Assembly (NCBI GenBank): GCA_947177675.1
Contig: CAMWVK010000007.1
Span: 1 to 14,176, forward strand
Direction: 5' to 3'
Source: an uncultured Mucispirillum sp.
Lineage (GTDB): Bacteria; Chrysiogenota; Deferribacteres; Deferribacterales; Mucispirillaceae
Length of the DNA stretch: 14,176 bases
In this document: one piece after another, positions 226 through 14,176 of the stretch
Layout: each line of letters starts with the position of its first letter
Numbering within the stretch: position 1 is the first letter of the stretch
Made by a program: the position numbers and the translations under genes
The notes under the pieces: model-generated
Seen by the model: only the letters and a program-made list of their open reading frames with translations
Databases searched by the model: none
What the model was told of the DNA's origin: nothing

Positions 226-558
226 TTATGCTGTTTCTTTATAGTCTATTTGTCCTGTAGTAAACACTTCTGCTAATTCATAATAAAGTTTATCATACTT
301 TTCTGTTTCCATATTATTTGCAGCACGAACAAGAGATGCAGCAGCCTGCTTAATATCTTCAAGTCTTAACCTGTAAGCTGCCCCATATATATTATGAGAA
401 TGACGGATTACTGCTTCATTATCGCCTTTTTCAATACTTTGTGGGATACGCTCCAAATCTTTTGAACAGATAGTAAAAAAATCATGCACAAAGCCTTTTA
501 AAAGCTCTGTATTAGCTATTCCTGTAGATTTTGCAAGTGTTTCCATATCAACTTTCAT
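226..558 (-). CDS. Hpt-domain histidine phosphotransfer protein
   Basis: This 110-residue soluble protein consists of one Hpt four-helix domain. Residues 51-64 read IRHSHNIYGAAYRL, which aligns with the Hpt signature (H-x-L-K-G), making His55 the likely phosphoacceptor. The usual Lys of the signature is Tyr58 here, a mild departure. The following stretch (EDIKQAAASLVRAA) fits the next Hpt helix. It starts with a perfect AGGAGG six bases before ATG and lies 16 bases after the stop of the hybrid kinase gene. That kinase ends in a receiver domain and has no Hpt domain of its own, so the likely role is to take phosphate from the kinase receiver and pass it to an unlinked response regulator not seen here. 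No output regulator is present in the window. Confidence 0.85.
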   Translation of the reverse strand: MKVDMETLAKSTGIANTELLKGFVHDFFTICSKDLERIPQSIEKGDNEAVIRHSHNIYGAAYRLRLEDIKQAAASLVRAANNMETEKYDKLYYELAEVFTTGQIDYKETA

Positions 559-585
559 TAAAAGCCTCCTATTTTCAGGCTTTTA
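559..585 (-). promoter_or_regulatory. Hairpin over kinase stop codon and Hpt ribosome binding site
   Basis: On the minus strand, a 9-base arm (559-567) is perfectly complementary to 577-585 with a 9-base loop between. The kinase stop codon (575-577) sits at the loop edge, and half of the AGGAGG used by the Hpt gene (565-570) is inside the stem. A ribosome ending translation of the kinase would melt this stem, so it could couple Hpt synthesis to kinase translation. The 3' arm ends in four U, so a weak terminator or attenuator is an alternative reading. Confidence 0.5.
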
Positions 586-3500
586 GATACTGGAGTAACA
601 CCTCTTGAAGTTTATCAAAGTTGATTGGTTTTGCAATATGACTATTCATACCGCTTGCAATAAAATTATCCATATCTTCTTTAATAACATTTGCAGTCAA
701 TGCTATAATTGGAACAGATATACCCATAGCTCTGATTTCTTTTGTGGCTGAAACACCATCCATAATCGGCATATGTATATCCATAAATATAATATCAAAT
801 ACTTTGCCACTTGATACTATATCTACAGCTTCCTGACCATTACCTGCAACAGTAACATTAAAGCCTGCTTTTTGAAGGAAGATAACTATAAGTTTTTGGT
901 TAACTGGGTTATCTTCCACCACTAAAATATCGCCTTTCAGCACAACTTTCTTATCTGTATCGGATAATCTTTCATCTTCTTTATAATTTTTTTGCATTAA
1001 TCTTGCAAACATATTATGTAGTCTTGTTAATGTGACTGGTTTTAGGAAAATATGGCTTATACCATCTATTTTACTGATTTCATTTTTATATATGCTGTAT
1101 GAGCCAACTATATATTTAACTTTATCTTTATATGGCATTTTAGCAAATATTTTTTTAAACTGCTCTATGTCCCTGCCTGCATCAATAAGCACATAGTCTG
1201 TATCTTCTGTAATTTTACTGTAATCACCATTACAGTCAGCTACTTTTATATTTAAAGAAGACATATATTCATTTAATACTATGCCACACTTACCCTTGCT
1301 TTCAAAAAGCAGCATTTTAAAGTTTGTATCAAATTTTTCAATATAGTCTGTGTAATCAATTATTTTCAATGAAAGCTCAAAAGAAAATGTAGAGCCTGTA
1401 TTTTCTTTTGTTTCAAGCTCCAATTGAGAATTCATCATTTCAAGCATACTGTTAGATATAGACAGACCAAGCCCTGTGCCACCAAACCGTCTTGTAATAG
1501 ATGTATCACCTTGAGCAAAAGGAGAGAATATTTTTTCCTTAGCATCATTATCTATGCCAATGCCAGTATCTGTTACAGAAAATTTTACTCTTGCTACCCC
1601 ATTTTCTTTATAGATACAGCGAACATCTAACGATATATTGCCATTCTCTGGAGTAAATTTCACAGCATTAGATAAAAGGTTTATCATAATCTGTTTAATT
1701 TTTAAAGAATCGCCTAAAACTTTCTGTGGTAAGAGCGGGTCTGTATAACTTGTAATTTCTATTTTTTTCTCTTCAGCTCTAGCTATATACATATCTGCTA
1801 TTGCTTCAATATCTGTTACAATACTAAATGGCACTTTTTCAAGCTCCATTTTACCACTTTCAATTTTAGAAAAATCTAATATATCATTAACAACGCCTAA
1901 AAGACTTTCTGAACTGGCACTTATAATTTTAAGATATTCTTTTGCAGTTTCATCCACTTTACAGTCTTTTAAAAGAGCTAAAAATCCTAAAATACCATTA
2001 ATTGGAGTTCTGATTTCATGACTCATATTTGCTAGAAATAAGCTTTTAGCTTTACTTGCATATTCTGCCTCTGCTTTTGCAATATCACGAGCCTGCACCA
2101 TTTCCTGCAACTGTGCAACCATTGCATGCTCTTTCTCATTTAATTCAAGCAGTGTTTTCTGTGATTCTACTTTATCAAAAATATTTCTGTGTTCGCATAC
2201 TACAAGTCTTACATTACCCCGTTTATCTAAAATAGGAAAAAAGCTTATCATTTCATATATATTATTTTCTTCTTCTATAACTTCATAAGATATTTTGATT
2301 TTTTCTTTAAATACCTGTTTCACACAGCATTCCTGACATGCTCTTGTGCATCTGCCTACATAATGTTTGTAGCAGTTTACAATATTATCATAAGGGTCTG
2401 ACGCATGGCTTGAGTTGGAATATTCTAGTGTAAAATCCTTTTTATAAACAACTAGTGTATTGCCTGTTGCATTAATATAGTCTGTTAATATTGTAATAAA
2501 TTCTTCACTTCTATCTTCTTCTGCTTTTAATTCATTAATTGCAGAATATTCTGGTGTTAAGTCACTCATTACACATAAAATATTTATTATATCGCCCTGA
2601 CTTGTGGTAATAGGTGTGCTTGATATTGATAAAACAACCTTTTTACTGTGTTTTGTAGTAAATTTATAAATACCATTAAGTACAGTATTTGTGCTTTCAC
2701 GGTTAAAAGAGTTTATAAATTTTTCAGATTCACTACATCTTTTTGCAAAATGTGTAAGTGTTTCACCAATATATTCATCAATCTGACCACCCATTAAGTC
2801 CAAAAACTTCTGGTTTACATTAGTTATTACTAAATCTCTGTTGAATTCTATAATATGAGAAGAATTATCTACCGCCAGCTTATAGCCTTCTAATACTCTG
2901 TTAAGCTGCATAATAGAATGTTTATTTCTTTCCATAACAATTACAATAAATGCAAAAAGCCATAATGCAACAGTTATTAAAAGCCATAAGAAAAAGGCAA
3001 TATTTTTAAACTGGTGTATATAGCTGTTTGGCATAATCTCTGCCACATATCCAAGCTCATTATTATCAATATCATAAATGCTGATAAATACTCCCCAATA
3101 TCTTGTGCCATCTATATATATATCCTCAATAAAATTTTTTACATCTTTTCTAGAAGATACTACATTGTTTATATTATTAATTATAGCTTTTAACACAATA
3201 TCAGGTATATAGTAATGGCTGCCTGTCATAACTTTATATTTACTTATATCCTGACCTTGAATATCTTCTATACCACCTTTTTCTATGTATGTATTTTTAA
3301 TTAAAAATATATATGAGCTGGCATAAAGAGTTTCTATATGGTTTAAAAATGAATCTGCTGTCATACCTAATTCAATATATCCATATACCTCATTATTATA
3401 CTGAAGCTTGTGTGGAATAATTACTGCAATATCTTTAGAATCTATTGTAAAAAGTCTGCTTTCTTTTTCAGGATAAATTATATGAAAGCTGCTGTTAAAT

Positions 3501-3895
3501 GATGATGGGTCAAGTTCTCCATCAACATATCTGCCTATTAATTTGCCAGATTTATCATATATCCTTATTAAGTTAACAGAGCCACGGATAAAATTTACAT
3601 ACATATCAAGAAAATGGTGGTGTATACGCCTGATTGCATTTTCTCTTTCTTTACCTGTCAGACTGTTGATTTCTTTAATATCTTTTAAAAAAGCCTGATT
3701 AGTATATAATATCTGAAATTTAGACAAAGCATCATTTACTACATTGTTATAAATAATTTCCTTCTGTGTAGTAATAGTTTTAACTCTTGATGCTATTTCA
3801 GTATCTATTCTTCTGTCTAAATCATAAAGAATAAAAATAGATACAAATATCTCTATAACAACAAAAACAATAACAAGTAACTTAATATTATTCAT
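575..3895 (-). CDS. Membrane hybrid sensor histidine kinase (Cache-PAS-PAS-HisKA-HATPase-REC-REC)
   Basis: This 1106-residue sensor has a membrane helix at about 5-25, an extracytoplasmic region of about 270 residues resembling a double Cache domain (for example VNLIRIYDKSGKLIGRYV near 107-124), and a second helix at about 298-321. Inside follow a PAS domain (about 338-450), a second PAS-like domain (about 470-575) with a cysteine cluster at 508, 516, 520, 523 and 524, and a short coiled coil. The kinase core is complete: MSHEIRTP with phosphoacceptor His626, N-box Asn743, DTGIG at 776-780 and GGTGLG at 805-810. Two receivers follow. The first (about 855-970) has lost the N-terminal acidic pair (LLFES) but keeps LKP at 951-953. 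The second is intact: Glu994/Asp995, phosphoacceptor Asp1039, Thr1067 and Lys1089. It starts at ATG seven bases after AAGGGA. It probably forms a phosphorelay with the adjacent Hpt gene. The ligand is unknown. Confidence 0.95.
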   Translation of the reverse strand: MNNIKLLVIVFVVIEIFVSIFILYDLDRRIDTEIASRVKTITTQKEIIYNNVVNDALSKFQILYTNQAFLKDIKEINSLTGKERENAIRRIHHHFLDMYVNFIRGSVNLIRIYDKSGKLIGRYVDGELDPSSFNSSFHIIYPEKESRLFTIDSKDIAVIIPHKLQYNNEVYGYIELGMTADSFLNHIETLYASSYIFLIKNTYIEKGGIEDIQGQDISKYKVMTGSHYYIPDIVLKAIINNINNVVSSRKDVKNFIEDIYIDGTRYWGVFISIYDIDNNELGYVAEIMPNSYIHQFKNIAFFLWLLITVALWLFAFIVIVMERNKHSIMQLNRVLEGYKLAVDNSSHIIEFNRDLVITNVNQKFLDLMGGQIDEYIGETLTHFAKRCSESEKFINSFNRESTNTVLNGIYKFTTKHSKKVVLSISSTPITTSQGDIINILCVMSDLTPEYSAINELKAEEDRSEEFITILTDYINATGNTLVVYKKDFTLEYSNSSHASDPYDNIVNCYKHYVGRCTRACQECCVKQVFKEKIKISYEVIEEENNIYEMISFFPILDKRGNVRLVVCEHRNIFDKVESQKTLLELNEKEHAMVAQLQEMVQARDIAKAEAEYASKAKSLFLANMSHEIRTPINGILGFLALLKDCKVDETAKEYLKIISASSESLLGVVNDILDFSKIESGKMELEKVPFSIVTDIEAIADMYIARAEEKKIEITSYTDPLLPQKVLGDSLKIKQIMINLLSNAVKFTPENGNISLDVRCIYKENGVARVKFSVTDTGIGIDNDAKEKIFSPFAQGDTSITRRFGGTGLGLSISNSMLEMMNSQLELETKENTGSTFSFELSLKIIDYTDYIEKFDTNFKMLLFESKGKCGIVLNEYMSSLNIKVADCNGDYSKITEDTDYVLIDAGRDIEQFKKIFAKMPYKDKVKYIVGSYSIYKNEISKIDGISHIFLKPVTLTRLHNMFARLMQKNYKEDERLSDTDKKVVLKGDILVVEDNPVNQKLIVIFLQKAGFNVTVAGNGQEAVDIVSSGKVFDIIFMDIHMPIMDGVSATKEIRAMGISVPIIALTANVIKEDMDNFIASGMNSHIAKPINFDKLQEVLLQYLKA

Positions 3896-4116: not shown

Positions 4117-5295
4117 TTACCTTATATCCTCATCTGGCATAACTATAGCCGCTGCAGCTTTAAAAATCCATGGAAATACAATAGCAGAAATCATTGATGC
4201 TAAAAGCACTGCGGATGTCTGCATTTTATCTATTAATTCTAAATCATAAAAGATACTTGATACAACAACAAGCATAGTAAGTGGATAAGAAAGACCTGTT
4301 GCAACAAGTACAAGTTTCCGTTTAGGGATAGATGAAAATAAAAGCAAAATTGTACCAGTCGCTTTTGATAAAAACAGTGATGTAATAATTACAAGTGCCA
4401 GTAAAATAACATCTTTCTGCATAAAATCATCAAATGTTACACGCATTCCAACTGATATAAAAAATATTGGTATAAAAAAACCATAACCTACTCCGCCAAG
4501 TTTATCAAGCACACCATCTCTGCCTGCAAAAACAAGAGCAAACATCATTCCACCAACGAATGCTCCCACAACAAACTCTATTTCTAAAACAGCAGCAAAA
4601 GCTACAAATGCAAAAAGTATTACAAAATTAGCTCTCATACCTGTTTCTGTTGAATTACCAACTTCTAAAAATACAGACTGTAAATTAGGCTTCCACCAAA
4701 GAGCAACCTTTAATATTTTCATAAATAAATAAATTACAATGAAAAATACTGCTAAATATAAAATCTGCCTTGCACTGTTTACAGTATATCCATATTTAGA
4801 TATTATAGTAAAGACAGTAAGTCCGGCAAGTGTTAATATTTCACCTATCATTGTAATAATTAAAAGCTTTTGTCCAAAATCTGTTTTTATAAGCCCAGTA
4901 TCTCTAAGCACTGGAAATAAAAGCCCTATACCTGATGTAAAAAATATAATAGCAAATGACCAGTGCAGGTTTAAGTAAAAGGATAAATGCCATGCAGCAA
5001 CTGCCACAGGAATAAATGCTGATACATAAAGCCAGAATTCTTTTCTTGATAAATCTCTGAACTTTTCAAAATCTATTTCAAGTCCGGCTAAATACATCAA
5101 TATTAAAAAACCAAGAGCTGAAAAATATTCTACCATCTCAAGCTGGTTTTCCCCATGGGGCAAAAGTGATGCTATGACTATTCCGTATATTATTTCCCCA
5201 ACAGCAGCAGGCAAAAGAAGCCGTTTGCTGATAAATGGCATAAAAAAAGCACCTATTGCCATAAGAAATAAAAACAGTGCTTCATGTTCAGTCAT
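4117..5295 (-). CDS. Cation/H+ antiporter, CPA2 (Kef/NapA-like) family membrane protein
   Basis: This is a 392-residue integral membrane protein with about 11-13 hydrophobic segments and no long soluble tail. Family hallmarks include GEIIYGIVIASLLP (33-46), LILMYLAGLEIDFEKF (64-79), FVVGAFVGGMMFAL (241-254) and FFIPIFFISVGM (273-284), all as in monovalent cation/proton exchangers of the CPA2 group. At the place where the ion-binding Asp-Asp usually sits, the sequence reads MIGEILTL (Gly151-Glu152), so the coupling residues differ from the NapA pattern. An ATG 14 codons earlier is open, but it lies inside the upstream gene and lacks a ribosome binding site. The chosen ATG has GAGG six bases upstream and overlaps the preceding stop (ATGACTGA), indicating translational coupling to the KTN/RCK regulator. 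The transported ion (K+ or Na+) is not determined by sequence alone. Confidence 0.88.
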   Translation of the reverse strand: MTEHEALFLFLMAIGAFFMPFISKRLLLPAAVGEIIYGIVIASLLPHGENQLEMVEYFSALGFLILMYLAGLEIDFEKFRDLSRKEFWLYVSAFIPVAVAAWHLSFYLNLHWSFAIIFFTSGIGLLFPVLRDTGLIKTDFGQKLLIITMIGEILTLAGLTVFTIISKYGYTVNSARQILYLAVFFIVIYLFMKILKVALWWKPNLQSVFLEVGNSTETGMRANFVILFAFVAFAAVLEIEFVVGAFVGGMMFALVFAGRDGVLDKLGGVGYGFFIPIFFISVGMRVTFDDFMQKDVILLALVIITSLFLSKATGTILLLFSSIPKRKLVLVATGLSYPLTMLVVVSSIFYDLELIDKMQTSAVLLASMISAIVFPWIFKAAAAIVMPDEDIR

Positions 5296-6703
5296 TAGAG
5301 TCCTCATCAGGAAGCATAAGAACACTGTTATTTGCACGAGATGCTATTAAAAAAGATGCATGAGGATTTAAAAAAGATATACTGTCTTTAGAGTTAGCTG
5401 CCACTATTAACAGGCTGTTTAACTTATCATCCACTTCTGATAAAACTTTATGAACAGGATTGCCTTCTAATATTAAAAGTGGTATTTTTGTTCTTGCTAA
5501 ATTTTCATAATCCCTGACAAAATTTTTACGGGATTCCATTTCATGAGTATCCTGATTAGTTTTCAATGCACCGGGTGGCACAACATATATACATCTGCAG
5601 GGCACTCCAAAATGAGCAGCAACTTCTGCACCTGTTTCTATGAGCCTTTCTGGAATACTGCCATTTAATAACACTATTACTTCATCATAAGGTGTTCTTC
5701 CCCTGCATATAAGAATAGGATGATAAGTTTTCTTAAAATAATATTTTAGTTTTCTATTAAATAAACCAAAACCAGCACTGCCTGAAACTGCTAATATACC
5801 TACATCATGAAGATATGCAGCACTGCGGAAATTTTTAAGTGTACCGCCAAACTCACAGCCAGCTTTTTGTATTATCTCTATTTCTTTTGTATCTGTAATT
5901 TTATGGCTTTCTGTATCATACCATAAATATTTTTTTGCCTTTGTATTATTAAAAAAGTAATTAATTTCAACAGAATCTTTATGGACTAAACCACCTGTAA
6001 GCACTGCAAAACACTGACCATACTGCAATGGAAATTCAGGCTTGCCTATCATTAAAATATTTACAATATTTTCCACAACTTTTGGTTCGCCCACAAGAAC
6101 AACTCTATCGCCTATCTGCAGCTTAAAATCACCATCAGGCACCATAAATGAGCCGTTTCTATATACTGCAGCCACTTTCCATCTGCTTGGTGCTAAAAAT
6201 CGCATTTTTCTGTCCACTATATGAGAACGCCTGCGAATAATAACTTCTACAATCTCACCATTGCCAAGCCCTATATTATTAGGTCTTGCATAGTTTTTTT
6301 GTATAATATTCAAAACAGATTCTGATGCAATCAATATAGGATTAATAACTTTAACATCAAACTGCTCTAATTCTTCACGCCTGTCATTTTTATAAAGCAT
6401 TAAAATAATTGGTATTTGAAGATTATATACTTGACGCGCTATTCTGCATATTTCTAATACAACATCAAAATCCTGCAGTGATGATACAATATGAGAAACA
6501 TCTTCTATATTAATTTTCTTCCATGTGACTATGCTGGATGCTTCACCCTCTATACCTGTTACATTATTATATTCATTAGTAACCCGCTCCACAAGGTCGC
6601 CATTTATATCTACAACAACGCATGGTCTTTCATCTGCCAGCATTTTTAATAATCTACGCTGGAAAAAACCAAGCCCAAAAAGTAACACTTTTTTAGCTGA
6701 CAA
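5288..6703 (-). CDS. KTN/RCK (TrkA-N/TrkA-C) regulator with C-terminal universal-stress-like domains
   Basis: This 471-residue cytosolic protein should gate the antiporter encoded next. Residues 4-34 form a Rossmann start (KVLLFGLGFFQRRL, then VVVDIN with Asp32 at the end of strand 2); the third glycine of the nucleotide loop is Gln15. The KTN fold runs to about 140. A TrkA-C-like domain follows (about 148-219, LQIGDRVVLVG at 195-205). Residues 225-335 and 338-467 look like two universal-stress-type (USP) halves: the first ends in HPILICRGR, the second starts YDEVIVLLNGS and ends in NNSVLMLP. The start is TTG, chosen because GGAG lies seven bases before it and no ATG follows in the Rossmann core. 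A near-consensus promoter lies just upstream. NAD(H) or adenine nucleotide binding is the expected signal input, inferred from family. Confidence 0.85.
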   Translation of the reverse strand: MSAKKVLLFGLGFFQRRLLKMLADERPCVVVDINGDLVERVTNEYNNVTGIEGEASSIVTWKKINIEDVSHIVSSLQDFDVVLEICRIARQVYNLQIPIILMLYKNDRREELEQFDVKVINPILIASESVLNIIQKNYARPNNIGLGNGEIVEVIIRRRSHIVDRKMRFLAPSRWKVAAVYRNGSFMVPDGDFKLQIGDRVVLVGEPKVVENIVNILMIGKPEFPLQYGQCFAVLTGGLVHKDSVEINYFFNNTKAKKYLWYDTESHKITDTKEIEIIQKAGCEFGGTLKNFRSAAYLHDVGILAVSGSAGFGLFNRKLKYYFKKTYHPILICRGRTPYDEVIVLLNGSIPERLIETGAEVAAHFGVPCRCIYVVPPGALKTNQDTHEMESRKNFVRDYENLARTKIPLLILEGNPVHKVLSEVDDKLNSLLIVAANSKDSISFLNPHASFLIASRANNSVLMLPDEDSND

Positions 6704-6937: not shown

Positions 6938-8791
6938 ATGAAAAATTTATCACAAAATGATTCTTTAAGAAATATTGCAATTATTGCCCATGTTGACCAT
7001 GGCAAAACAACTCTTGTTGATGCTATGTTTAAACAAAGCGGTGTTTACAGAGATAATCAGGTTACTGAAGAAAGAGCAATGGATAGTATGGATATTGAAA
7101 GAGAAAGAGGTATTACTATCACTGCTAAAAACTGCTCTGTTAACTGGCATGGCACTAAAATCAATATTTTAGATACTCCAGGACATGCAGATTTTGGCGG
7201 TGAAGTAGAACGGGCATTATCTATGGTAGATGGTGCTATCCTTTTAGTAGATGCTTCTGAAGGCCCGCTTCCACAAACTAGATTTGTTCTTAAAAAAGCA
7301 CTGGAAAGAGGTTTAAAAGTAATAGTATGTATTAATAAAATTGATAGAAAAGATGCAAGATCTCATGAAGTTATAGATGAAGTGTTAGATTTATTTATAG
7401 ATTTAGATGCAACAGAAGAACAGCTTGATTTCCCTATTCTTTATGCTGTTGGCAGAGATGGTGTTGCTTCTCTTACTCTTGAAGAAACGGGAAAAGATTT
7501 AAAACCACTTTTTAATATGATTTTAAAAGAAATACCTGCACCCAGCTATGATGAAGAATCTTCGTTTAAAATGCTTGTTTCAGATTTAGGATATTCTGAT
7601 TATCTTGGCAGACTTGCAATTGGTAAAATAAGAAGTAATGTTACAAATATTAATGACGGGCTTATTATTTTCAACGAAAAAGGCGAAGCAAAGCCTGTAA
7701 GAGTTTCTAAAATACAGTCATATTCTGGTATGGATTTAGTTGATAACCCTAACCCACAGTCGGGAGATATTTTAGTTATTGCAGGTATTGCAGAAGTTAC
7801 TATTGGCGATACTATATGCTCAAAAGATAATACTGTGCCACTTCCTAGAATATCAGTAGATGAACCAACAGTTGCTATGAAATTTACTATTAACAAATCT
7901 CCACTTGCTGGTAAAGAAGGTAAAATTGTTCAGGCGGCTAAAATTAAAGAAAGACTTGCAAAAGAAGTGCTTAGAAATGTTTCCATTAAAGTAGAAGATG
8001 CTGCAGAAAAAGACAGCTTTATTGTTAAAGGCAGAGGTGAGCTGCAGCTTGCTGTTTTAATTGAAGAAATGAGGAGAGAAGGGTTTGAATTAAATGTGGG
8101 CAGACCACAGGTAATATTTAAAAAACAGGACGGCATTCGTTTAGAGCCTGTTGAAAATGTATATATTGACTGTGAAGAACCATATCTTGGTGTTATTACA
8201 GAAAAACTTTCTATTAGAAAGGGCAGAATGACTAATCTTGTAAATAAAGGTACAGGCAGAGTTAGAGCAGAGTTTTCAGTTCCTTCTCGTGGTCTTATTG
8301 GATATCGTGATGATTTCCTTACAGATACAAAAGGAACTGGCATTATGAATACTCTTTTTGCAGGATATGAAGAATACAGAGGCGATTTCCCAGTGCGTCA
8401 TACTGGCTCGCTTGTTTCAGACAGAGCAGGTGTTGCTGTTGGTTATGGTCTTTTCCATTTAGAGCCACGAGGTCAGCTTTTTGTTGTTCCTGGCAACCCT
8501 GTATATGAAGGTATGGTTATTGGGGAATATAATAAAGATAATGATTTAAATGTAAACCCTTGTAAAGAAAAAAAACTTACAAATATGCGTGCATCAGGAA
8601 AAGATGAGGCACTTACTCTCCGTCCTATTCTTCCTATGACACTTGAAAAAGCAATACATTTTATTGCGGATGATGAAATGGTAGAAGTAACACCACAATC
8701 TATCCGTATTAGAAAAACTATTCTTTCTGCACAAGAAAGACATACTCTCCGCGGTAAAATGCTGCAGGGTATTGAATATTTAGATGATTAA
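6938..8791 (+). CDS. typA: Ribosome-associated translational GTPase TypA/BipA
   Basis: This is a 617-residue translation-factor GTPase of the EF-G/LepA class, close to the usual length of about 600-615. The G domain is complete: AHVDHGKT (17-24), RGITI (57-61), DTPGH (79-83) and NKID (133-136). The later domains carry the expected TypA blocks, including KGRGELQLAVLIEEMRREGF, VPSRGLIGYRDDFLTDTKGT and the C-terminal NMRASGKDEALTLRP. Family members bind 70S ribosomes in competition with the stringent-response factor RelA and help 50S assembly and growth under cold or other stress. The ATG has GAGG four bases upstream. It is transcribed divergently from the KTN/antiporter operon across a 234-base gap. 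A TTGACT at 6875-6880 lacks a good -10 at 17 bases, so its promoter is unresolved. A hairpin follows 27 bases after the stop. Confidence 0.98.
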   Translation: MKNLSQNDSLRNIAIIAHVDHGKTTLVDAMFKQSGVYRDNQVTEERAMDSMDIERERGITITAKNCSVNWHGTKINILDTPGHADFGGEVERALSMVDGAILLVDASEGPLPQTRFVLKKALERGLKVIVCINKIDRKDARSHEVIDEVLDLFIDLDATEEQLDFPILYAVGRDGVASLTLEETGKDLKPLFNMILKEIPAPSYDEESSFKMLVSDLGYSDYLGRLAIGKIRSNVTNINDGLIIFNEKGEAKPVRVSKIQSYSGMDLVDNPNPQSGDILVIAGIAEVTIGDTICSKDNTVPLPRISVDEPTVAMKFTINKSPLAGKEGKIVQAAKIKERLAKEVLRNVSIKVEDAAEKDSFIVKGRGELQLAVLIEEMRREGFELNVGRPQVIFKKQDGIRLEPVENVYIDCEEPYLGVITEKLSIRKGRMTNLVNKGTGRVRAEFSVPSRGLIGYRDDFLTDTKGTGIMNTLFAGYEEYRGDFPVRHTGSLVSDRAGVAVGYGLFHLEPRGQLFVVPGNPVYEGMVIGEYNKDNDLNVNPCKEKKLTNMRASGKDEALTLRPILPMTLEKAIHFIADDEMVEVTPQSIRIRKTILSAQERHTLRGKMLQGIEYLDD

Positions 8792-8818
8792 TTATATTAA
8801 GCATTCCTTTTTAGTATA

Positions 8819-8850
8819 AAAGCCCATATAAATTTTATTATATGGGCTTT
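8819..8850 (+). terminator. Intrinsic terminator after typA
   Basis: A perfect 13-base-pair stem is formed by AAAGCCCATATAA (8819-8831) and TTATATGGGCTTT (8838-8850) with a 6-base loop. It begins 27 bases past the typA stop. The trailing U run is short (three U within the arm, then GC), so termination may be partial. Confidence 0.75.
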
Positions 8851-9039
8851 GCTGACTTGTATTTGTAAGCATTTTTTACATGAACTGCCAAATTCCTGTC
8901 CAGTCAGCTTTTTTAATTTCCTGCCTTTTTATCAGAGAAAGTTGTCCCTCTTTTAGTCGCCAAATAGGAATATATCAGAATTTATACAGGCTGTTGAGCG
9001 GTTATATTTTGAAGTTTTGTAAGAAAAATATATGAAAAC

Positions 9040-9068
9040 TTGATTTATGAACTTTGCAGCGGTATAAT
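9040..9068 (+). promoter_or_regulatory. Promoter-like match pointing into the gap and antisense to the superoxide reductase gene
   Basis: TTGATT (9040-9045) and a perfect TATAAT (9063-9068) are separated by exactly 17 bases on the plus strand. There is no open frame of note downstream before 9257. If active it would make a small RNA of roughly 100 bases, or antisense RNA across the superoxide reductase gene. In DNA this AT-rich, chance matches are common. Confidence 0.3.
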
Positions 9069-9163
9069 AATTATATATTTTACTACATTATAAAATTAGT
9101 CATTATCATAAAAATTGTAAACTTTCTGGGACTCTTTCATATAAATTATGTAAAACAGTATTT

Positions 9164-9181
9164 AAAATGATTAATCATTTT
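9164..9181. repeat. 18-base perfect palindrome
   Basis: AAAATGATTAATCATTTT is identical to its own reverse complement, with no loop. It could be a site for a dimeric DNA-binding protein; the ATGATNATCAT-like core recalls Fur-type boxes, although it lies beyond the 3' end of both flanking genes. As RNA it would form only a poor hairpin. Confidence 0.5.
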
Positions 9182-9188
9182 GAATAAT

Positions 9189-9220
9189 AAAAAAAGGGGG
9201 CATTTATAAAAACAACCCCC
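9189..9220 (-). terminator. Intrinsic terminator after the superoxide reductase gene
   Basis: Read on the minus strand, GGGGG (9216-9220) and CCCCC (9196-9200) enclose a 15-base AT-rich loop and are followed directly by seven T (9189-9195). A smaller GGCT/AGCC hairpin (9224-9237) sits between it and the stop codon. Together they fit termination of the leftward transcript and are not shaped for rightward termination. Confidence 0.65.
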
Positions 9221-9256
9221 AAAGGCTAAAAAAAGCCCACCAGTTTGTATTTTAAA

Positions 9257-9628
9257 TTAGACAGCTAATTCAGATTCCCATAAACCATGGATATTACAGT
9301 AACTTACAGCATGGAGTGTGCCTGGAGCTGTAATTTTGCATTTAAATAGTGCAACTGGCTCAGTGTAAAGTGTACCTTGATTTGCACCTTTTACAGATTC
9401 ACCATGAGCTAAAAATTCAGCTCTGCCAATGTGCTGGATAGCTGTTTCGCCTTTATAGTATAAGTCAATATAGGCGATAAAGTGTTCAGTAGTGTTAGGG
9501 TGGGCGATTTCTGCACCAACAGATACTTCAATCACTGCTGTATCGCTTTCACGGCTTACTACCTTAATAACTGGCACATGTTTTTCTGCTTTAAAATCTG
9601 CTGTTTTTATTAAATTAGATATAGACAT
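9257..9628 (-). CDS. sor: Class II superoxide reductase (neelaredoxin type)
   Basis: This 123-residue cytosolic enzyme reduces superoxide to hydrogen peroxide without making oxygen, a typical anaerobe defence. The single mononuclear iron site is complete: EKHVP (His17), AHPN (His43), EHF (His49), and CNIH near the C-terminus (Cys111 as axial thiolate, His114). Glu15 and Lys16 also match the conserved residues near the open iron position. There is no N-terminal desulforedoxin domain with its four cysteines, which makes it class II and explains the short length. The ATG has GGAGG six bases upstream. Its promoter lies in the 77-base gap after lipoprotein A, and a terminator follows. Electrons are expected from rubredoxin or a similar donor, not encoded here. 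Confidence 0.95.
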   Translation of the reverse strand: MSISNLIKTADFKAEKHVPVIKVVSRESDTAVIEVSVGAEIAHPNTTEHFIAYIDLYYKGETAIQHIGRAEFLAHGESVKGANQGTLYTEPVALFKCKITAPGTLHAVSYCNIHGLWESELAV

Positions 9629-9705: not shown

Positions 9706-10248
9706 TTATTTGTTTTTTGTGTAGATATTTCTAATTTTTTCGCATTTTTCCATATCTTTTAAGAAAATAGCTGCCATATCATTCCTAAGTTTTTCCTTGA
9801 ACTTATCAAGATATTTTATATACTGGTTTTCCTGTTCGCTTTTAATAACAGATTCCATATAAAGATATGATGATTTAGTTACAAGGTATGTGCATTTAAC
9901 ATATTCTATATGTTTTTGGTATTCTGTATCATCACTTTTGTTCTGGTATTCATCAATAACTTCTAATGATTTATCAAGCTCTTTTTTAATATAGCCAGTA
10001 AAACGCATCATTCTTTTATATGAAAGTGCTTTTACAATTTCTGCTTCATCTTTCATAATATTTTTACTTATTAAAAAAAGCTTGTCTTCTAACTGATATT
10101 TGTATTTTTCAACATTATTATCTGTTTCTGTATGTTCTGCCACAGTATTAGTGCTTTTGCTTTCCTGCTGTAAAAAAGATGGTTTATCATTTTTAGCAGC
10201 ACATGATGATAAAACAATAAAACAGGCAAAAACAGATAAGTATTTCAT
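9706..10248 (-). CDS. Helical lipoprotein A of the envelope protein array
   Basis: I do not recognise this 180-residue protein. It has a short lipoprotein signal ending in LSSC, with Cys16 as the lipid-bearing residue. Ala at +2 would favour the outer membrane under the E. coli Lol rule. About 30 polar residues follow as a linker, then an almost entirely helical region rich in Lys, Glu, Tyr and Met (for example FTGYIKKELDKSLEVIDEY), and a C-terminal EKIRNIYTKNK. It is the last gene of the leftward array: its ATG lies one base after the stop of lipoprotein B and has no strong ribosome binding site, so translation is probably coupled. It shares size, composition and general layout with its neighbours but only weak sequence similarity. 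Two cysteines (Cys119 region and Cys169 region) occur in the mature part. Confidence 0.8.
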   Translation of the reverse strand: MKYLSVFACFIVLSSCAAKNDKPSFLQQESKSTNTVAEHTETDNNVEKYKYQLEDKLFLISKNIMKDEAEIVKALSYKRMMRFTGYIKKELDKSLEVIDEYQNKSDDTEYQKHIEYVKCTYLVTKSSYLYMESVIKSEQENQYIKYLDKFKEKLRNDMAAIFLKDMEKCEKIRNIYTKNK

Positions 10249-10249
10249 A

Positions 10250-10750
10250 TTATTTTTTAACCATATTTTGAATTTCTTCTAAAAGTTTTTCTTCTTCTTT
10301 TAAAAGATTGTCTATTTTGTTCCCAGATACTGCAATATCATTTGCAAGGATTTCTACAAATGTTTTCATTGACTTATCCTGCAGATTTTTAAAATTATTA
10401 AGCATATCTATTGAAAAACTGCATACACTGTCAATATATTCTATTTTTACAGCTATATATTTTTTACCAATATCTGATTTTATATTTTTAGCTTTTTCTG
10501 TAATAGTGTTTTTAATATCAGTCTGCACTTTTTCAATATCGCTTATTGTTTTATCTACATCAAACACTGTTCCCTGTTCAAGAGCATCTTTTAATTTATA
10601 TACAGGCTCTGAAGATTTGCTTGCAAAATCTTCCTGTAATGGCACAATATCATGTATAATAGTATAGTAATCCTGTTCAATAGTATTTAATTTTTTACTG
10701 CATGCAGCAGTAACTAATAATATTAAAATTAACAGTAATGTTTTTTTCAT
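10250..10750 (-). CDS. Helical lipoprotein B of the envelope protein array
   Basis: This unrecognised protein has 166 residues from the start chosen here. The signal MKKTLLLILILLVTAAC is a classic lipobox with Cys17 and Ser at +2. The mature part is predicted all-helical and highly charged, ending in KEEEKLLEEIQNMVKK. A longer reading from an ATG 24 bases upstream overlaps the previous gene, but GGAG lies seven bases before the downstream ATG, and that ATG starts a standard signal peptide. The segment KKYIAVKIEYIDSV...DMLNNFKNL corresponds in position to the more conserved K-x-Y...EY-x-K core of proteins C, E and F. The gap to protein C is 13 bases, so they are co-transcribed. A surface-anchored helical bundle is the most that can be inferred. 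Confidence 0.82.
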   Translation of the reverse strand: MKKTLLLILILLVTAACSKKLNTIEQDYYTIIHDIVPLQEDFASKSSEPVYKLKDALEQGTVFDVDKTISDIEKVQTDIKNTITEKAKNIKSDIGKKYIAVKIEYIDSVCSFSIDMLNNFKNLQDKSMKTFVEILANDIAVSGNKIDNLLKEEEKLLEEIQNMVKK

Positions 10751-10763
10751 TAAAAAGCTCCAT

Positions 10764-11273
10764 TTATTTTTCATTAATTTCTTCTATAATTTCCTTTAAA
10801 AGTTTATCCTGCTGTTTCTGCAGTGCTCTTATTTTTTTGTTATATTTAATCTGGGTTGTTTTTGTATCATTATTACCATGTTCACCTAGTGTTTTAAACT
10901 GTTCAATAGTAACTTTTACATATTTGGCTTGTATTTCTAAAAGTTTAATAGTTATTTTGTGATAATCTTTTACTTCTTTTGATACTATATGAATATTTAC
11001 TTCTTTTGCAAGTTTCAAAAGTCTTACAAGTTCAATATTAATCAGCTTATTATCCTGTTCAAACTGCGCAAAGTCATTTGTTTTTTTATATTTTGCAATA
11101 GCAGAAGTCATTTGTGTATTAATCAGCTTTATTTTAACATTTAATTCCTCTTCAATTGCAGAGTATCTGCTTATATCTTTTTGCAGGATAATTTTATCTG
11201 TTTTTGCACAGGCAGCAAGGGTAAATATTAGTAATACAGCTGACAGTGCTAAACTATTTTTCTTTATCAGCAT
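10764..11273 (-). CDS. Helical lipoprotein C of the envelope protein array
   Basis: This unrecognised protein is 169 residues from the ATG chosen. Its signal ends IFTLAAC, with Cys22 as the lipidation site and Ala at +2. The mature part is helical and Lys-rich. KEVKDYHKITIKLLEIQAKYVK lines up with LEVKRYHDVTLAYIKLRNSFLK of protein E, which is the best evidence that the lipoproteins and the secreted members are one family. The C-terminal ALQKQQDKLLKEIIEEI resembles the final helix of E and F. The start overlaps the end of gene D by 20 bases; a GTG four codons earlier is open but has no ribosome binding site, whereas AGGTG precedes the ATG by nine bases. The overlap suggests translational coupling. 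Confidence 0.82.
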   Translation of the reverse strand: MLIKKNSLALSAVLLIFTLAACAKTDKIILQKDISRYSAIEEELNVKIKLINTQMTSAIAKYKKTNDFAQFEQDNKLINIELVRLLKLAKEVNIHIVSKEVKDYHKITIKLLEIQAKYVKVTIEQFKTLGEHGNNDTKTTQIKYNKKIRALQKQQDKLLKEIIEEINEK

Positions 11274-11856
11274 AGTAATCAACACCTGATAAAAAGTTTA
11301 TATAATCTATTTCCTGCTGGTTCATATCCTGATGAGTTGTATGCAGCATACCAGTATATATCTCATAACTTACACTTTTTTCTTTTTCATAAATATCTGC
11401 AATTTTATAAATCATTTGATTTTGCAGGCTTATATATTTTTTCAGGGCAGCAAAAGCAGATTTATAATCATTAGTCACAAATTTATTAATCGCTGCATCA
11501 ATTTTGGCAGATAATTCTGCATCACCTTTTTTAATAAAGTTTAATTTTTCAGATATATCAGTGGTTTTATTATCAAATATTATATCAAGCAGGTCATCTG
11601 TCTGCTGGTTTAATATATCAAAAGTTCCTGTAATGTCATTTCTTGCTTGATTTATATAGTAATCTGTATCCTGTATCAATTCTTTAGATGATGTAATATA
11701 TTTTTTAAATTCTAAATATGCTTCTTCAGAATTAATATTTTCTTGAGAGTTTTCAGTATCAGCTGCTTTTTCTTCTTTTGGTGTGGAAATAACAGCCACA
11801 GCAATGCAAAGAGCTGTAATTAATAAAATTATTATACCAACAGTTATTTTTTTCAT
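11254..11856 (-). CDS. Exported or membrane-anchored helical protein D of the array
   Basis: This unrecognised protein has 200 residues. The N-terminus (MKKITVGIIILLITALCIAV) is a strong hydrophobic segment. Cys17 is preceded by Leu, so it is not a lipobox; it may be cut after AVA (19-21) or stay as an anchor. An acidic, Asn/Glu-rich linker (about 27-45) leads into a helical region with Gln, Lys and Asp, for example KKYISLQNQMIYKIADIYEK. It is longer and more divergent than the others, and its likeness to them is mainly architectural. It is separated from protein E by 83 bases containing an 11-base-pair hairpin, so it may begin a second transcript (D-C-B-A). The weak GAG six bases before ATG supports the start. 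Confidence 0.8.
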   Translation of the reverse strand: MKKITVGIIILLITALCIAVAVISTPKEEKAADTENSQENINSEEAYLEFKKYITSSKELIQDTDYYINQARNDITGTFDILNQQTDDLLDIIFDNKTTDISEKLNFIKKGDAELSAKIDAAINKFVTNDYKSAFAALKKYISLQNQMIYKIADIYEKEKSVSYEIYTGMLHTTHQDMNQQEIDYINFLSGVDYYADKEK

Positions 11857-11892
11857 ATAAATCTCATATTTTAAGTATTATCATATAAAGAA

Positions 11893-11923
11893 TATGGTTT
11901 GAATAATAAGTTTTCAAACCATA
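11893..11923 (-). terminator. Hairpin between array genes E and D
   Basis: An 11-base-pair stem (11893-11903 with 11913-11923, core ATGGTTTGAA/TTCAAACCAT) with a 9-base loop lies 16 bases after the stop of gene E. On the minus strand it is followed by TTCTTTAT, a weak U-rich run, so it could be a leaky terminator or an RNA-processing stem setting different levels of the two halves of the array. Confidence 0.5.
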
Positions 11924-11939
11924 ATATTATATATTGTAA

Positions 11940-12461
11940 TTATTTTGCAGTATTTCCAGCAGGGGCAGGGTGGATAGTTTCCATTAAAACTTTTAAGATT
12001 TCAGTATTTTCTTTATTTAGTCTGTCAAATTCACCTGCATATTTTTTTGTTAAGGATTCTTTATCTTTTTCATCTACTTTACCTTTTTTTACAAAAACAT
12101 CTGCAACATCTTTTAGAAAACTGTTGCGGAGTTTAATATAAGCAAGTGTTACATCGTGGTATCTTTTAACTTCTAAAGTTTTAATTTTTTGAGCTTGTGC
12201 ATTCATGTGTTTTTCAATAGCCTGCACTTGATTATCTACTATTTTTATACTTGTTTTTATATCTTTTTTGCTTTTGCCTTCAATTATATTATCAATTTCC
12301 ACCATTTCCTGCTCTATTTTAGAAAGAGCATCTATAATTTTAGGATTTATTTCACTGTTATATACATTAAGGTCTTGTGTTATGGCTTCCTGTAATGATG
12401 CAGCAAAACATAATCCTGCTGTGATAAATACTAAAAGTAAAGATAGTAAAATTTTTTTCAT
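11940..12461 (-). CDS. Secreted helical protein E of the array (paralogue of F)
   Basis: This 173-residue protein has a cleavable signal peptide, predicted cut after Ala20 (GLCFA/A). The mature protein is helical and charged. From about residue 62 it matches protein F at more than half of positions by eye, with shared blocks QKIKT-EVK-Y, YIKL-NSFLKD, LTKKYAGEF and LMETI-PA. The signal peptides also match (MKKILLSL against MKKILISL, both ending LCFA), so this is a recent tandem duplication. The ATG has AAGGAG six bases upstream, and the gap to F is 15 bases. The end (HPAPAGNTAK) is a short unstructured tail. I cannot assign a function. A periplasmic or extracellular location follows from the signal peptide. 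Confidence 0.85.
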   Translation of the reverse strand: MKKILLSLLLVFITAGLCFAASLQEAITQDLNVYNSEINPKIIDALSKIEQEMVEIDNIIEGKSKKDIKTSIKIVDNQVQAIEKHMNAQAQKIKTLEVKRYHDVTLAYIKLRNSFLKDVADVFVKKGKVDEKDKESLTKKYAGEFDRLNKENTEILKVLMETIHPAPAGNTAK

Positions 12462-12476
12462 TGTTTTCTCCTTATT

Positions 12477-12983
12477 CTATTCAAATTGTGCAGGGCGTAT
12501 TATTTCCATTAATATATCATGAAATTCTGCTTCTTTTTTTCTAAGTTTTTCAAATTCGCCTGCATATTTTTTGGTTAAGTATTCTTTCTTTTTTTCATCT
12601 ATTTTATTTTGTTTCTTGAAAACAGCAGCTGTATCTTTCAAAAAGTTATTGAGAAGTTTAACATACTCAAGCTCTATGTAGTAATACTGCTTTACTTCTG
12701 GTGTTTTTATTTTTGAAGCTTGGATATTCATTTGTTTTTCAAGAGCCTGCATTTCATCATCTAGTATTGCTATGCTGTTTATAATCTCTTTATTATCTTT
12801 GCCTTCTGTCGCATCATCTATTTCCCTCATTTGCTTATTAACATTTACAATCATATCTTCAATTTTCTTTTCTATCTTGCTGTAATATAAATATTCTGCC
12901 ACAACTTGATCCCTTTTTGAATCTGCAAAACACAATGAGACTGTAATAAACACAGCTGTTAAAGATATTAAAATTTTTTTCAT
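12477..12983 (-). CDS. Secreted helical protein F of the array (paralogue of E)
   Basis: This 168-residue protein has a signal peptide predicted to be cut after Ala20 (SLCFA/D). The mature region is mostly helix, probably a small bundle or coiled coil: helices with EKKIEDMIVNVNKQMREID, then ALEKQMNIQASKIKTPEVKQ, then YVKLLNNFLKD, then KKEYLTKKYAGEFEKL. It has no cysteine in the mature part and no recognisable enzyme motif. It matches E closely and G more distantly, for example YSK-I-K and the spacing of KT...K...KKY. GGAG lies upstream of the ATG, and there are 15 bases between the stop of G and this start. Possible roles such as a structural, chaperone-like or host-contact protein are only guesses. 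Confidence 0.85.
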   Translation of the reverse strand: MKKILISLTAVFITVSLCFADSKRDQVVAEYLYYSKIEKKIEDMIVNVNKQMREIDDATEGKDNKEIINSIAILDDEMQALEKQMNIQASKIKTPEVKQYYYIELEYVKLLNNFLKDTAAVFKKQNKIDEKKKEYLTKKYAGEFEKLRKKEAEFHDILMEIIRPAQFE

Positions 12984-12998
12984 TATGTCTCTCCAATG

Positions 12999-13493
12999 CT
13001 AATTAAAAACAGCTTTTAAAAAGTCTTTTCTTATAGTTTCTGCCTGTTTTTTAACATCTGCTTCTTCATCTTTATATTTTTTTTCAATTTCTTTTATTTC
13101 TTTTTTTGTAATTGAGCCTTTTTTATTATAATAATTTACAGTTTCTTTTATCACTTTTTCATAAAAAGAAAGCTCATATACTGGATATGTAAGAGCATAC
13201 TTCATATTGTCTGTTTTTAATGTTTTACAGCTTTCTTTTATATAATTATCAAGCTGTTGTATTTTGCTGTGAATGATATTAAGCTTTTCATTAACTGTAT
13301 CTATTTTATTATCAATCAGCAGGCTTTTTATTTTATCTATTTCTTTATATACTTCTTTTTTTACAGCTGCTATTCTCTTATCTATTTCTTTACTGTATAT
13401 GCCATAATCATCAAACAAATCCTTTTTATTATCTGCATAAACAATGCTGTAAGGCAGTATTAGAAAAATAAATAGATATATACATTTTTTCAT
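12999..13493 (-). CDS. Secreted helical protein G of the array
   Basis: This 164-residue protein has a signal peptide predicted to be cut after Ala20 (SIVYA/D), the same position as in E and F. The mature part is very rich in Lys, Glu, Ile and Tyr and looks fully helical (for example KEIKEIEKKYKDEEADVKKQ). IYSKEIDKRIAAVKKEVYKEID aligns with the first helix of F, and KTDNMKYALTYPVYELSFYEK aligns with the KTPEVKQYY core, so it is a diverged member of the same family. Its AGGAG lies inside the last codons of the preceding gene, five bases from ATG with only two bases between the genes, implying tight coupling. One cysteine (in KESCKTLK) is in the mature part. Function is unknown. Confidence 0.83.
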   Translation of the reverse strand: MKKCIYLFIFLILPYSIVYADNKKDLFDDYGIYSKEIDKRIAAVKKEVYKEIDKIKSLLIDNKIDTVNEKLNIIHSKIQQLDNYIKESCKTLKTDNMKYALTYPVYELSFYEKVIKETVNYYNKKGSITKKEIKEIEKKYKDEEADVKKQAETIRKDFLKAVFN

Positions 13494-13495
13494 AT

Positions 13496-14092
13496 TTACT
13501 CCTGCATACCGCCTGCAAGAGCCAGCACAAGCATAGTCGTTTTAATAAACTGTTTACCTACAGTCTGCTCTTTATCATCATATTTATTTAAAATCATTCT
13601 GTATTCTTCTTTACTTAACTGGTTGTATAGGCAGTCCATGATTTCTTCACCCAGTTTTTCATCTATTTTGTCATATTTTGTAACAATACCCTTATATTCC
13701 TGAAAAGTAAGTGCCTCGTTTTCTGCATACCGTTTAATAATTTCATATCCTTTTGCTATCTTAAAACGGTTTTGTTTATCTAAAAGGGTTATAAAAATAC
13801 GCATTTTATAAGTCTTAAACCCAGAGAAGTTTGCTTTTAAAATAGTTAAGTTATGTTCTAGATTTTTTAAAGTGTTACGCATTCTAAAAACATCATTTCT
13901 AGTAAGCTGATATTTTGTAATATCAAGCATACGGACAACTTTATCTATCTGGTCAGTAATATCTTCAAATCGTGCTTCAAGACCTGAACTTAAAAGGTCT
14001 AAATCATCAGCAAAGCATTTAATTTCACCAGTTGCATTTTTAGCACCAGTTTCTGCTATCAGTTTAGATAAATTAAATTCCTGTTCGTTCAT
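13496..14092 (-). CDS. Cytosolic helical hypothetical protein H
   Basis: This 198-residue protein has no signal peptide, unlike the genes that follow it. It begins MNEQEFNLSKLIAETGAK, continues with helical segments (DITDQIDKVVRMLDITKYQL, MRNTLKNLEHNLTILK) and a middle part LLDKQNRFKIAKGYEIIKRY, and ends in a short apolar stretch TTMLVLALAGGM. I do not recognise it. A GTG three codons earlier is open but overlaps the stop of the upstream gene; the ATG, five bases after that stop, is preferred although its ribosome binding site is weak. Because it sits in the same operon as the secreted proteins, it could be a cytosolic partner, or simply a co-transcribed gene. Its sequence shows no convincing kinship with E, F or G. 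Confidence 0.78.
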   Translation of the reverse strand: MNEQEFNLSKLIAETGAKNATGEIKCFADDLDLLSSGLEARFEDITDQIDKVVRMLDITKYQLTRNDVFRMRNTLKNLEHNLTILKANFSGFKTYKMRIFITLLDKQNRFKIAKGYEIIKRYAENEALTFQEYKGIVTKYDKIDEKLGEEIMDCLYNQLSKEEYRMILNKYDDKEQTVGKQFIKTTMLVLALAGGMQE

Positions 14093-14097
14093 TTTTA

Positions 14098-14176
14098 TCA
14101 CATATTTTTATATTTTTCTAATGAGCGTTGAAGTCTTTTTGCTTCTTTTTCATATTTTGAAACTACACTTCTGTAA
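14098..14176 (-). CDS. C-terminal end of an upstream operon gene (partial)
   Basis: The last 25 codons and stop (TGA at 14098-14100) of a gene that enters from beyond the right edge. The visible tail, YRSVVSKYEKEAKRLQRSLE followed by KYKNM, is charged and helical like its neighbours. It ends five bases before the ATG of protein H, so the operon continues upstream. Too little is present to assign it. Confidence 0.55.
   Translation of the reverse strand, partial: YRSVVSKYEKEAKRLQRSLEKYKNM

Follow-up and report, generated by a model that had tools for sequence, protein, structure and literature searches.

What is the tandem run of small genes that fills one end of a contig from an uncultured Mucispirillum sp. 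(GenBank assembly GCA_947177675.1, contig CAMWVK010000007.1), and what could its products form? The window, i.e. the whole stretch of DNA analysed here, is one entire contig of 14,176 bases and belongs to a draft genome of 1.88 Mb in 329 contigs (hereafter G000). A preliminary description had read seven genes in it, A to G, as a run of exported helical paralogues, partly lipoproteins and partly secreted. All seven are open at the positions given for them, on the minus strand and in the transcription order G-F-E-D-C-B-A, and the array is longer than seven, two genes, I and H, being added at its 5' side, where H runs off the contig end at 14176. Among the genomes searched (10 Mucispirillum genomes, G000 included, and 40 other Deferribacterota), this run of about nine small genes is conserved and restricted to Mucispirillum. 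Most of its genes would be duplicates of one four-helix protein, with copies targeted to different places in the envelope. The features, in the order of transcription, are as follows.

14101..14176, minus strand: H, last 25 codons only, of an exported protein of about 150 residues; match to a profile of 9 orthologues (E-value 3.2e-10, positions 126-150)
13496..14101, minus strand: I, 201 residues, without a hydrophobic N-terminus; open frame, which may start at an ATG three codons in
12999..13493, minus strand: G, exported soluble paralogue of 164 residues; open frame and profile kinship
12477..12983, minus strand: F, exported soluble paralogue of 168 residues, duplicate of E; open frame, present in 2/10 genomes
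11940..12461, minus strand: E, exported soluble paralogue of 173 residues, predicted four-helix bundle; open frame and model
11857..11939, minus strand: gap from E to D, at the boundary of the soluble and anchored blocks, holding a hairpin with an 11-pair stem; folding energy against shuffles
11254..11856, minus strand: D, paralogue of 200 residues with a probable uncleaved N-terminal membrane anchor; open frame, hydropathy and profile kinship
10764..11285, minus strand: C, lipoprotein paralogue, 173 residues from the first GTG; open frame, lipobox and profile kinship
10250..10774, minus strand: B, lipoprotein paralogue, 174 residues from the first ATG (166 from the next); open frame and lipobox
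9706..10248, minus strand: A, lipoprotein of 180 residues, predicted four-helix bundle with invariant Cys 119 and 169; open frame, alignment and model
9257..9628, minus strand: superoxide reductase (desulfoferrodoxin iron-binding domain), 77 bases after A; Pfam and NCBIfam matches

Another contig of G000, C141, stops just past an HNH gene, at an apparent start codon of H, so that the contig break probably falls inside H.

Do these proteins make up one family? Their orthologues were gathered from the nine other Mucispirillum genomes, and hhalign was run on the mature parts, with signal peptides removed; 90 reversed-profile pairs served as the null (mean 14.9, standard deviation 3.4, maximum 25.5). 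E and F, which had been described as duplicates, share 52% identity and reach a score of 218, and the relationship of E to G, seen as a diverged relative, and to C is likewise recovered (E-G 52, E-C 47). The other scores above all null values are those of B with B2, its diverged copy in some genomes (50), G-F (46), G-D and F-C (42 each), E-D (39), F-B (36), H-G (33), E-B (31), H-I (30.6), D-B (30.5), H-E (29), C-B (28) and F-D (26). A deeper profile of mature E, F, G and C scores 58 with D (reversed, at most 12), 34 with B (at most 19), 33 with H (at most 18) and 16 with I (at most 12). The check proposed in the preliminary description, a profile from E, F, G and C, gave a consistent result: built full-length without D, H and B and run at E-values up to 0.1 against the 50 genomes of the phylum, it recovers D at the locus in 5/10 Mucispirillum genomes (best 2.2e-9, outside the signal peptide) and, signal peptide included, H in 9/10 (best 1.2e-4) and B in 1/10 (1.8e-4). 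Reciprocally, E is matched by a B profile in 3 genomes, at best at 2.4e-7 and over an alignment that includes the signal peptide. The feature common to the alignments is the turn between helices 3 and 4, which reads aromatic-x3-(G/N)-x-(I/V), followed by K-Y in most members. Judged by these profile scores and their reversed controls, E, F, G, C, D, B and H are thus one family, to which I is tied weakly, through H (hhalign 30.6-31.7, against at most 23.2 reversed), and of which it is perhaps a member.

Of the seven proteins first grouped together, six therefore stay in the family and A leaves it. When the signal peptides are retained, the score of A with the E/F/G/C profile is 27.6 (probability 16%; reversed 14.8 and 12.5), above 30/30 column shuffles. 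Its mature part falls to the level of the null, with a best score of 17.7 against any family profile and 13.4 against the deeper E/F/G/C profile (13.7 and 13.2 reversed), and the full-length score is therefore put down to the shared signal peptide. A was thus rejected as a family member, though it may be a distant relative. It has no shared helix 3-4 turn and instead carries two Cys residues (119 and 169), invariant in 27/27 relatives, which lie at about the same height on helices 3 and 4 of the predicted structure, so that a disulphide between them is possible.

Structure models cover two of the seven proteins, and both E (mean predicted local distance difference test score, pLDDT, 84.4) and A (mean pLDDT 78.8) are predicted to be four-helix bundles ending after helix 4. 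The eight array proteins complete in the window (A to G and I) pass no curated cut-off of Pfam or NCBIfam. The matches below cut-off, many of them to helical or coiled-coil families (Prominin, fibrinogen, HAUS4, HBL), were rejected as reflecting composition; Prominin is the best Pfam row for E (22.2 bits against a cut-off of 34.3, residues 27-110) and is matched at E-values of at most 0.01 by 16/57 E/F/G/C relatives. In the PDB, searched by sequence, the best E-values are 0.041 for E/F/G/C, 0.23 for E/F, 0.47 for A and 0.4 for I. No Rfam family is found in the window. A phage origin found no support, 0/8 array proteins matching PHROGs, and a match of G to the defence protein LeoB in PADLOC-DB (1/8 proteins; E-value 4.2e-4 over positions 246-335 of 568) was taken as a chance match between helical sequences. 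In the literature, the array is described in no title or abstract start among the matches listed. The initial impression that no described family is involved is thus shared by Pfam, NCBIfam, the PDB by sequence and PHROGs.

How far does the family extend? The E/F/G/C profile gives strong matches in 10/10 Mucispirillum genomes, with a few weak ones elsewhere in the same genomes, and one or two weak, partial matches in 11/40 others (best 0.0013, in G044). The other profiles behave similarly: that of A matches 9/10 Mucispirillum genomes (the contig of G008 ends before A) and, weakly, 5/40 others (best 0.0034, in G021), that of D 10/10 and 1/40 (0.0019, in G044), that of B 9/10 (G007 has only a B2 copy) and 2/40 (best 1.4e-4, in G027), and those of I and H 10/10 Mucispirillum genomes and 0/49 other genomes; all these best matches outside the genus are partial. 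Inspection of the locus matched in G025 (E-value 0.008 with F) revealed no array. In public genome contigs, an alignment of I leads to 8 loci, all from Mucispirillum, and F used as a query finds no match. A collection of 5.8 billion proteins, searched by a method that requires shared words of 5 residues, contains 90 proteins matching E/F/G/C at E-values of at most 0.1, 89 of them at 1.2e-18 or below and one fused fragment at 2.2e-4, and 41 matching A, the weakest at 1.8e-13; both sets end abruptly, with no tail of distant relatives. Separately, a stretch of G007 away from the array (contig C26:5625-5810) matches the E/F/G/C profile (E-value 5.2e-4) with four internal stops and could be a decayed copy.

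Where would the products go? The lipoprotein signals attributed to A, B and C are well conserved, the lipobox being kept in 10/10 orthologues of C and 7/7 of B and the lipobox Cys of A being invariant in 27/27 aligned relatives. At the N-terminus of E, F and G lies a hydrophobic stretch that ends in -FA or -YA at residue 20, where their signal peptides had been said to be cut; the stretch is there, and cleavage at this residue is a reading of the sequence. With a strongly hydrophobic N-terminus (best 15-residue mean 2.8-3.6 in 10/10 genomes) and no lipobox, D is probably membrane-anchored, as had been suspected. Past residue 40, the best 15-residue mean does not exceed 1.23 in the exported members except H, and 1.47 in H. 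The proposal of one exported helical family with lipid-anchored and soluble forms in a single gene run is thus supported. In I, no signal peptide and no hydrophobic N-terminus were seen; no other protein of the array is as conserved (85-96% identity between the window copy of I and its orthologues across the genus), which is odd for a gene of one genus.

Is this layout stable? The 10 Mucispirillum genomes retain the order H-I-G-(F)-E-D-C-B-A-superoxide reductase, with some members lost or swapped; positions beyond E, F, G and C were matched across genomes by BLAST or by profile. The longest open frames are separated by short gaps or overlap, H and I by 4 bases in 7/9 genomes and D and C in 10/10. 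In the tree built from E, F, G and C, of which the bootstrap is not fully settled and the midpoint root serves for drawing only, C and G each occupy one side of a branch (100/100), as does F (92/79), and E forms the stock around them. In the comparison of copy number between genomes called for at the outset, F and B/B2 turn over and G has decayed in G005, most positions keeping their own orthologues. The remnant of G in G005 is recognised by tblastn with 7/9 G orthologues (E-values 8e-8 to 2.4e-4), the remaining array proteins that were tried giving 0.15 or worse.

The array genes are under purifying selection. The ratio of non-synonymous to synonymous substitution rates (dN/dS), estimated according to Nei-Gojobori as whole-gene averages over 1 to 7 genome pairs per gene, some with unreliable dS values above 1, is 0.02-0.07 for I, 0.11-0.18 for H (3 pairs), 0.20-0.46 for G, 0.08-0.32 for E, 0.22-0.43 for D, 0.12-0.25 for C, 0.15-0.36 for B and 0.11-0.23 for A. 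F evolves fastest, with 0.58 in one pair and 48% identity. The neighbouring pckA (0.03-0.05), alaS (0.07-0.09) and superoxide reductase (0.02-0.15) give the values for comparison. No ratio above 1 is found in the orthologue pairs computed, and diversifying selection as the main force is not supported. The idea of a diversifying set of surface proteins, raised in the preliminary description, therefore fits less well, most positions having their own orthologues, even though F and B/B2 turn over.

A more elaborate form of this idea, which we regard as unlikely and yet worth keeping in mind, is a host-facing array whose helical products, surface lipoproteins and secreted proteins, would act as adhesins or in immune evasion, with constant and variable parts like those of the PFam54 array of Borrelia. 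It would account for head-to-tail paralogues that are partly lipoproteins, for the turnover at F/G and B/B2 and for the fast evolution of F, and it keeps its weight because F and B/B2 turn over as members of the PFam54 array do, constant ends likewise flanking a variable middle there (excerpt of PMC11389397). The genus, moreover, inhabits the vertebrate gut (excerpt of PMC12887300). Against a host-facing role stand the absence of dN/dS above 1 in the pairs computed, which as whole-gene averages leave room for positive selection at single sites, the separate orthologues at most positions, and I, highly conserved and devoid of an export signal. The same values bear on another explanation, namely that these are lineage-specific genes with hardly any selected function, maintained through tandem duplication in a genome rich in A+T. 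Credible matches in one genus only, Lys/Glu-rich sequences and, in G005, the decayed G and a truncated B2 copy would all be expected of such genes; dN/dS below 1 in all pairs computed, invariant residues and an order kept in 10 genomes would not, and we consider this explanation highly improbable.

Does anything mark a division within the array? The E-D gap of the window is predicted to fold with an energy z-score of -3.5, equalled by 1/300 shuffles, and in 8/10 genomes this gap is more stable than dinucleotide shuffles (0 to 3 of 300 as low). Five related genomes share one stem, in which a paired change from T-A to C-G separates G000 from the other four, and the corresponding stems of G009, G001 and G007 are unrelated to it. 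The hairpin lies exactly between the soluble block and the anchored block. A terminator was considered and rejected: none is listed there by a consensus scan and the T run is weak, so that the hairpin may rather be an attenuator, a processing element or a stabilising element.

Where did the array come from? An HNH gene precedes it in every other genome whose contig reaches that far (8 whole, G008 in part), and the superoxide reductase gene follows A in 8/8 genomes where it is whole, and in part in G004. In three genomes of two other genera of the family (G010, G011 and G012), HNH lies between pckA and alaS-cheX, with no array; cheX and pckA are named from one Pfam match each, and alaS is the name that we presume for its neighbour. 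The row of G011, from a sister genus (L100 6391-12304), reads cheX-alaS-HNH-pckA-superoxide reductase, and inverting HNH-pckA in it yields the arrangement alaS-pckA-HNH-(array)-superoxide reductase of Mucispirillum, whose alaS end was observed in G000 (contig C141), G002, G003, G005 and G007; G006 has other genes before HNH. As the G011 row differs by this inversion, the array would most simply have arisen at the base of the genus, between HNH and superoxide reductase and beside a local inversion, and the G011 row looks like the site before the array.

The same neighbourhood bears on another role, that of periplasmic bundles binding ligands or buffering stress, either akin to chemoreceptor sensors or working as small helical chaperones made together with superoxide reductase. 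The constant position of superoxide reductase after A is in line with it, as are the best Foldseek rows for E, which are four-helix ligand-binding domains (8bsa_A, E-value 0.024, probability 1.00, template modelling (TM) score 0.43 by query length); Foldseek/VIA-align gave no clear structural relative, which does not prove a new fold. In G011, however, superoxide reductase lies beside pckA and HNH without any array, which counts somewhat against this role, and we regard it as distinctly improbable.

Beyond superoxide reductase, different genes are found in different genomes, and breakpoints thus lie just past the array. In G000, typA (NCBIfam) is convergent with it (window 6938-9628); in five other genomes an apparent AraC-type regulator (one tested) is found there, and the genes of G006 at this place are, we assume, transposase-like. 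Farther along the window, on the minus strand, a gene for a TrkA-type regulatory protein overlaps that of a sodium/hydrogen exchanger in what looks like a two-part antiporter (4117-6703), and a large hybrid histidine kinase (PAS, HisKA, HATPase and receiver domains; Pfam) is followed by a small, separate Hpt-like protein, whose match lies just under the Pfam cut-off (226-3895).

Taken together, the conserved gene order, the variety of targeting signals, the purifying selection and the position of the split agree with subunits of a single assembly, and the multi-subunit envelope structure envisaged earlier fits better than a diversifying surface set. We thus tentatively favour, at a little under even chances, a Mucispirillum-specific envelope assembly. 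One four-helix-bundle protein would have been duplicated, and its copies fixed in separate roles before the genus diversified: (i) H, G, E and sometimes F would be soluble periplasmic subunits, (ii) D would sit in the inner membrane, facing the periplasm, (iii) C and B, together with the unrelated helical lipoprotein A, would be lipid-anchored, and (iv) I would be a highly conserved cytoplasmic partner. The soluble subunits would come first and the anchored ones second, and the E-D hairpin may set different amounts of the two blocks. That the products meet in one assembly is an inference, and so are their exact places, their joint transcription, what the hairpin does and any function.

Several observations weigh against such an assembly of related subunits. 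Its composition varies, as F lies between G and E only in G000 and G006 (2/10), diverged B2 copies stand in for B in G001, G005 and G007 (3/10), and G is decayed in G005. No partner of known function is found inside the array. The hairpin is absent in 2/10 genomes, namely G005 (277/300 shuffles as low) and G004 (gap of 22 bases). A is unrelated to the others by mature sequence, the kinship of I rests on 31-35 residues, and several family pairs are within the null (e.g. G-C 13, D-C 11, G-B 16, H-C 16, I-E 12), so that membership is by linkage and not all-against-all. A fuller version of the envelope assembly seems doubtful: a heteromeric apparatus spanning the envelope, made almost entirely of copies of one four-helix-bundle protein, one of which works in the cytoplasm, its export signal lost or never acquired, and arising at the base of Mucispirillum between HNH and superoxide reductase, with the hairpin dosing soluble against anchored subunits.

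In the mouse, Mucispirillum belongs to the core gut flora, inhabits the mucus and has been connected with inflammation (excerpts of PMC5285517 and PMC12887300); five genes of unknown function, three of them with predicted exported products, are up-regulated in the colon (Table S3A of PMC5285517) and may be array genes. A run that 10/10 Mucispirillum genomes have, and for which 40 others from the phylum gave no credible match, could well be a trait that distinguishes the genus. It would also offer a clean case of one fold copied and targeted to soluble, membrane-anchored and lipid-anchored places within one locus.

How does this locus compare with known systems? The PFam54 genes of Borrelia lie on lp54, include that of CspA and code for proteins of helical fold. 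These lipoprotein genes, 6 to 11 in number and related to one another, follow each other head to tail, some members being conserved and others variable (excerpt of PMC11389397). Tandem head-to-tail paralogues with constant and variable members are found in the Mucispirillum array as well, which differs by having one member without an export signal and its own orthologues at most positions. The chemoreceptor ligand-binding domains (Vc1313, Tsr, Tar, PcaY) are four-helix bundles of a size similar to that of the bundle predicted for E, their match to it being weak; unlike them, E and A are free-standing, without a second membrane helix or a signalling domain in the same chain. Another candidate for a close system is 2ap3, a Staphylococcus aureus helical protein of unknown function, which we take to be a YkyA-like lipoprotein. 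Both PFam54 and the YkyA-like family, presumably held in Pfam, are absent from the Pfam rows of the eight window proteins (E-values up to 1), of the 57 E/F/G/C relatives (up to 0.01; best 25 of 29 families) and of the 27 relatives of A (up to 0.01). Finally, the fold class and the principle of a paralogue array are already known, and what is new in Mucispirillum is the family and its layout.

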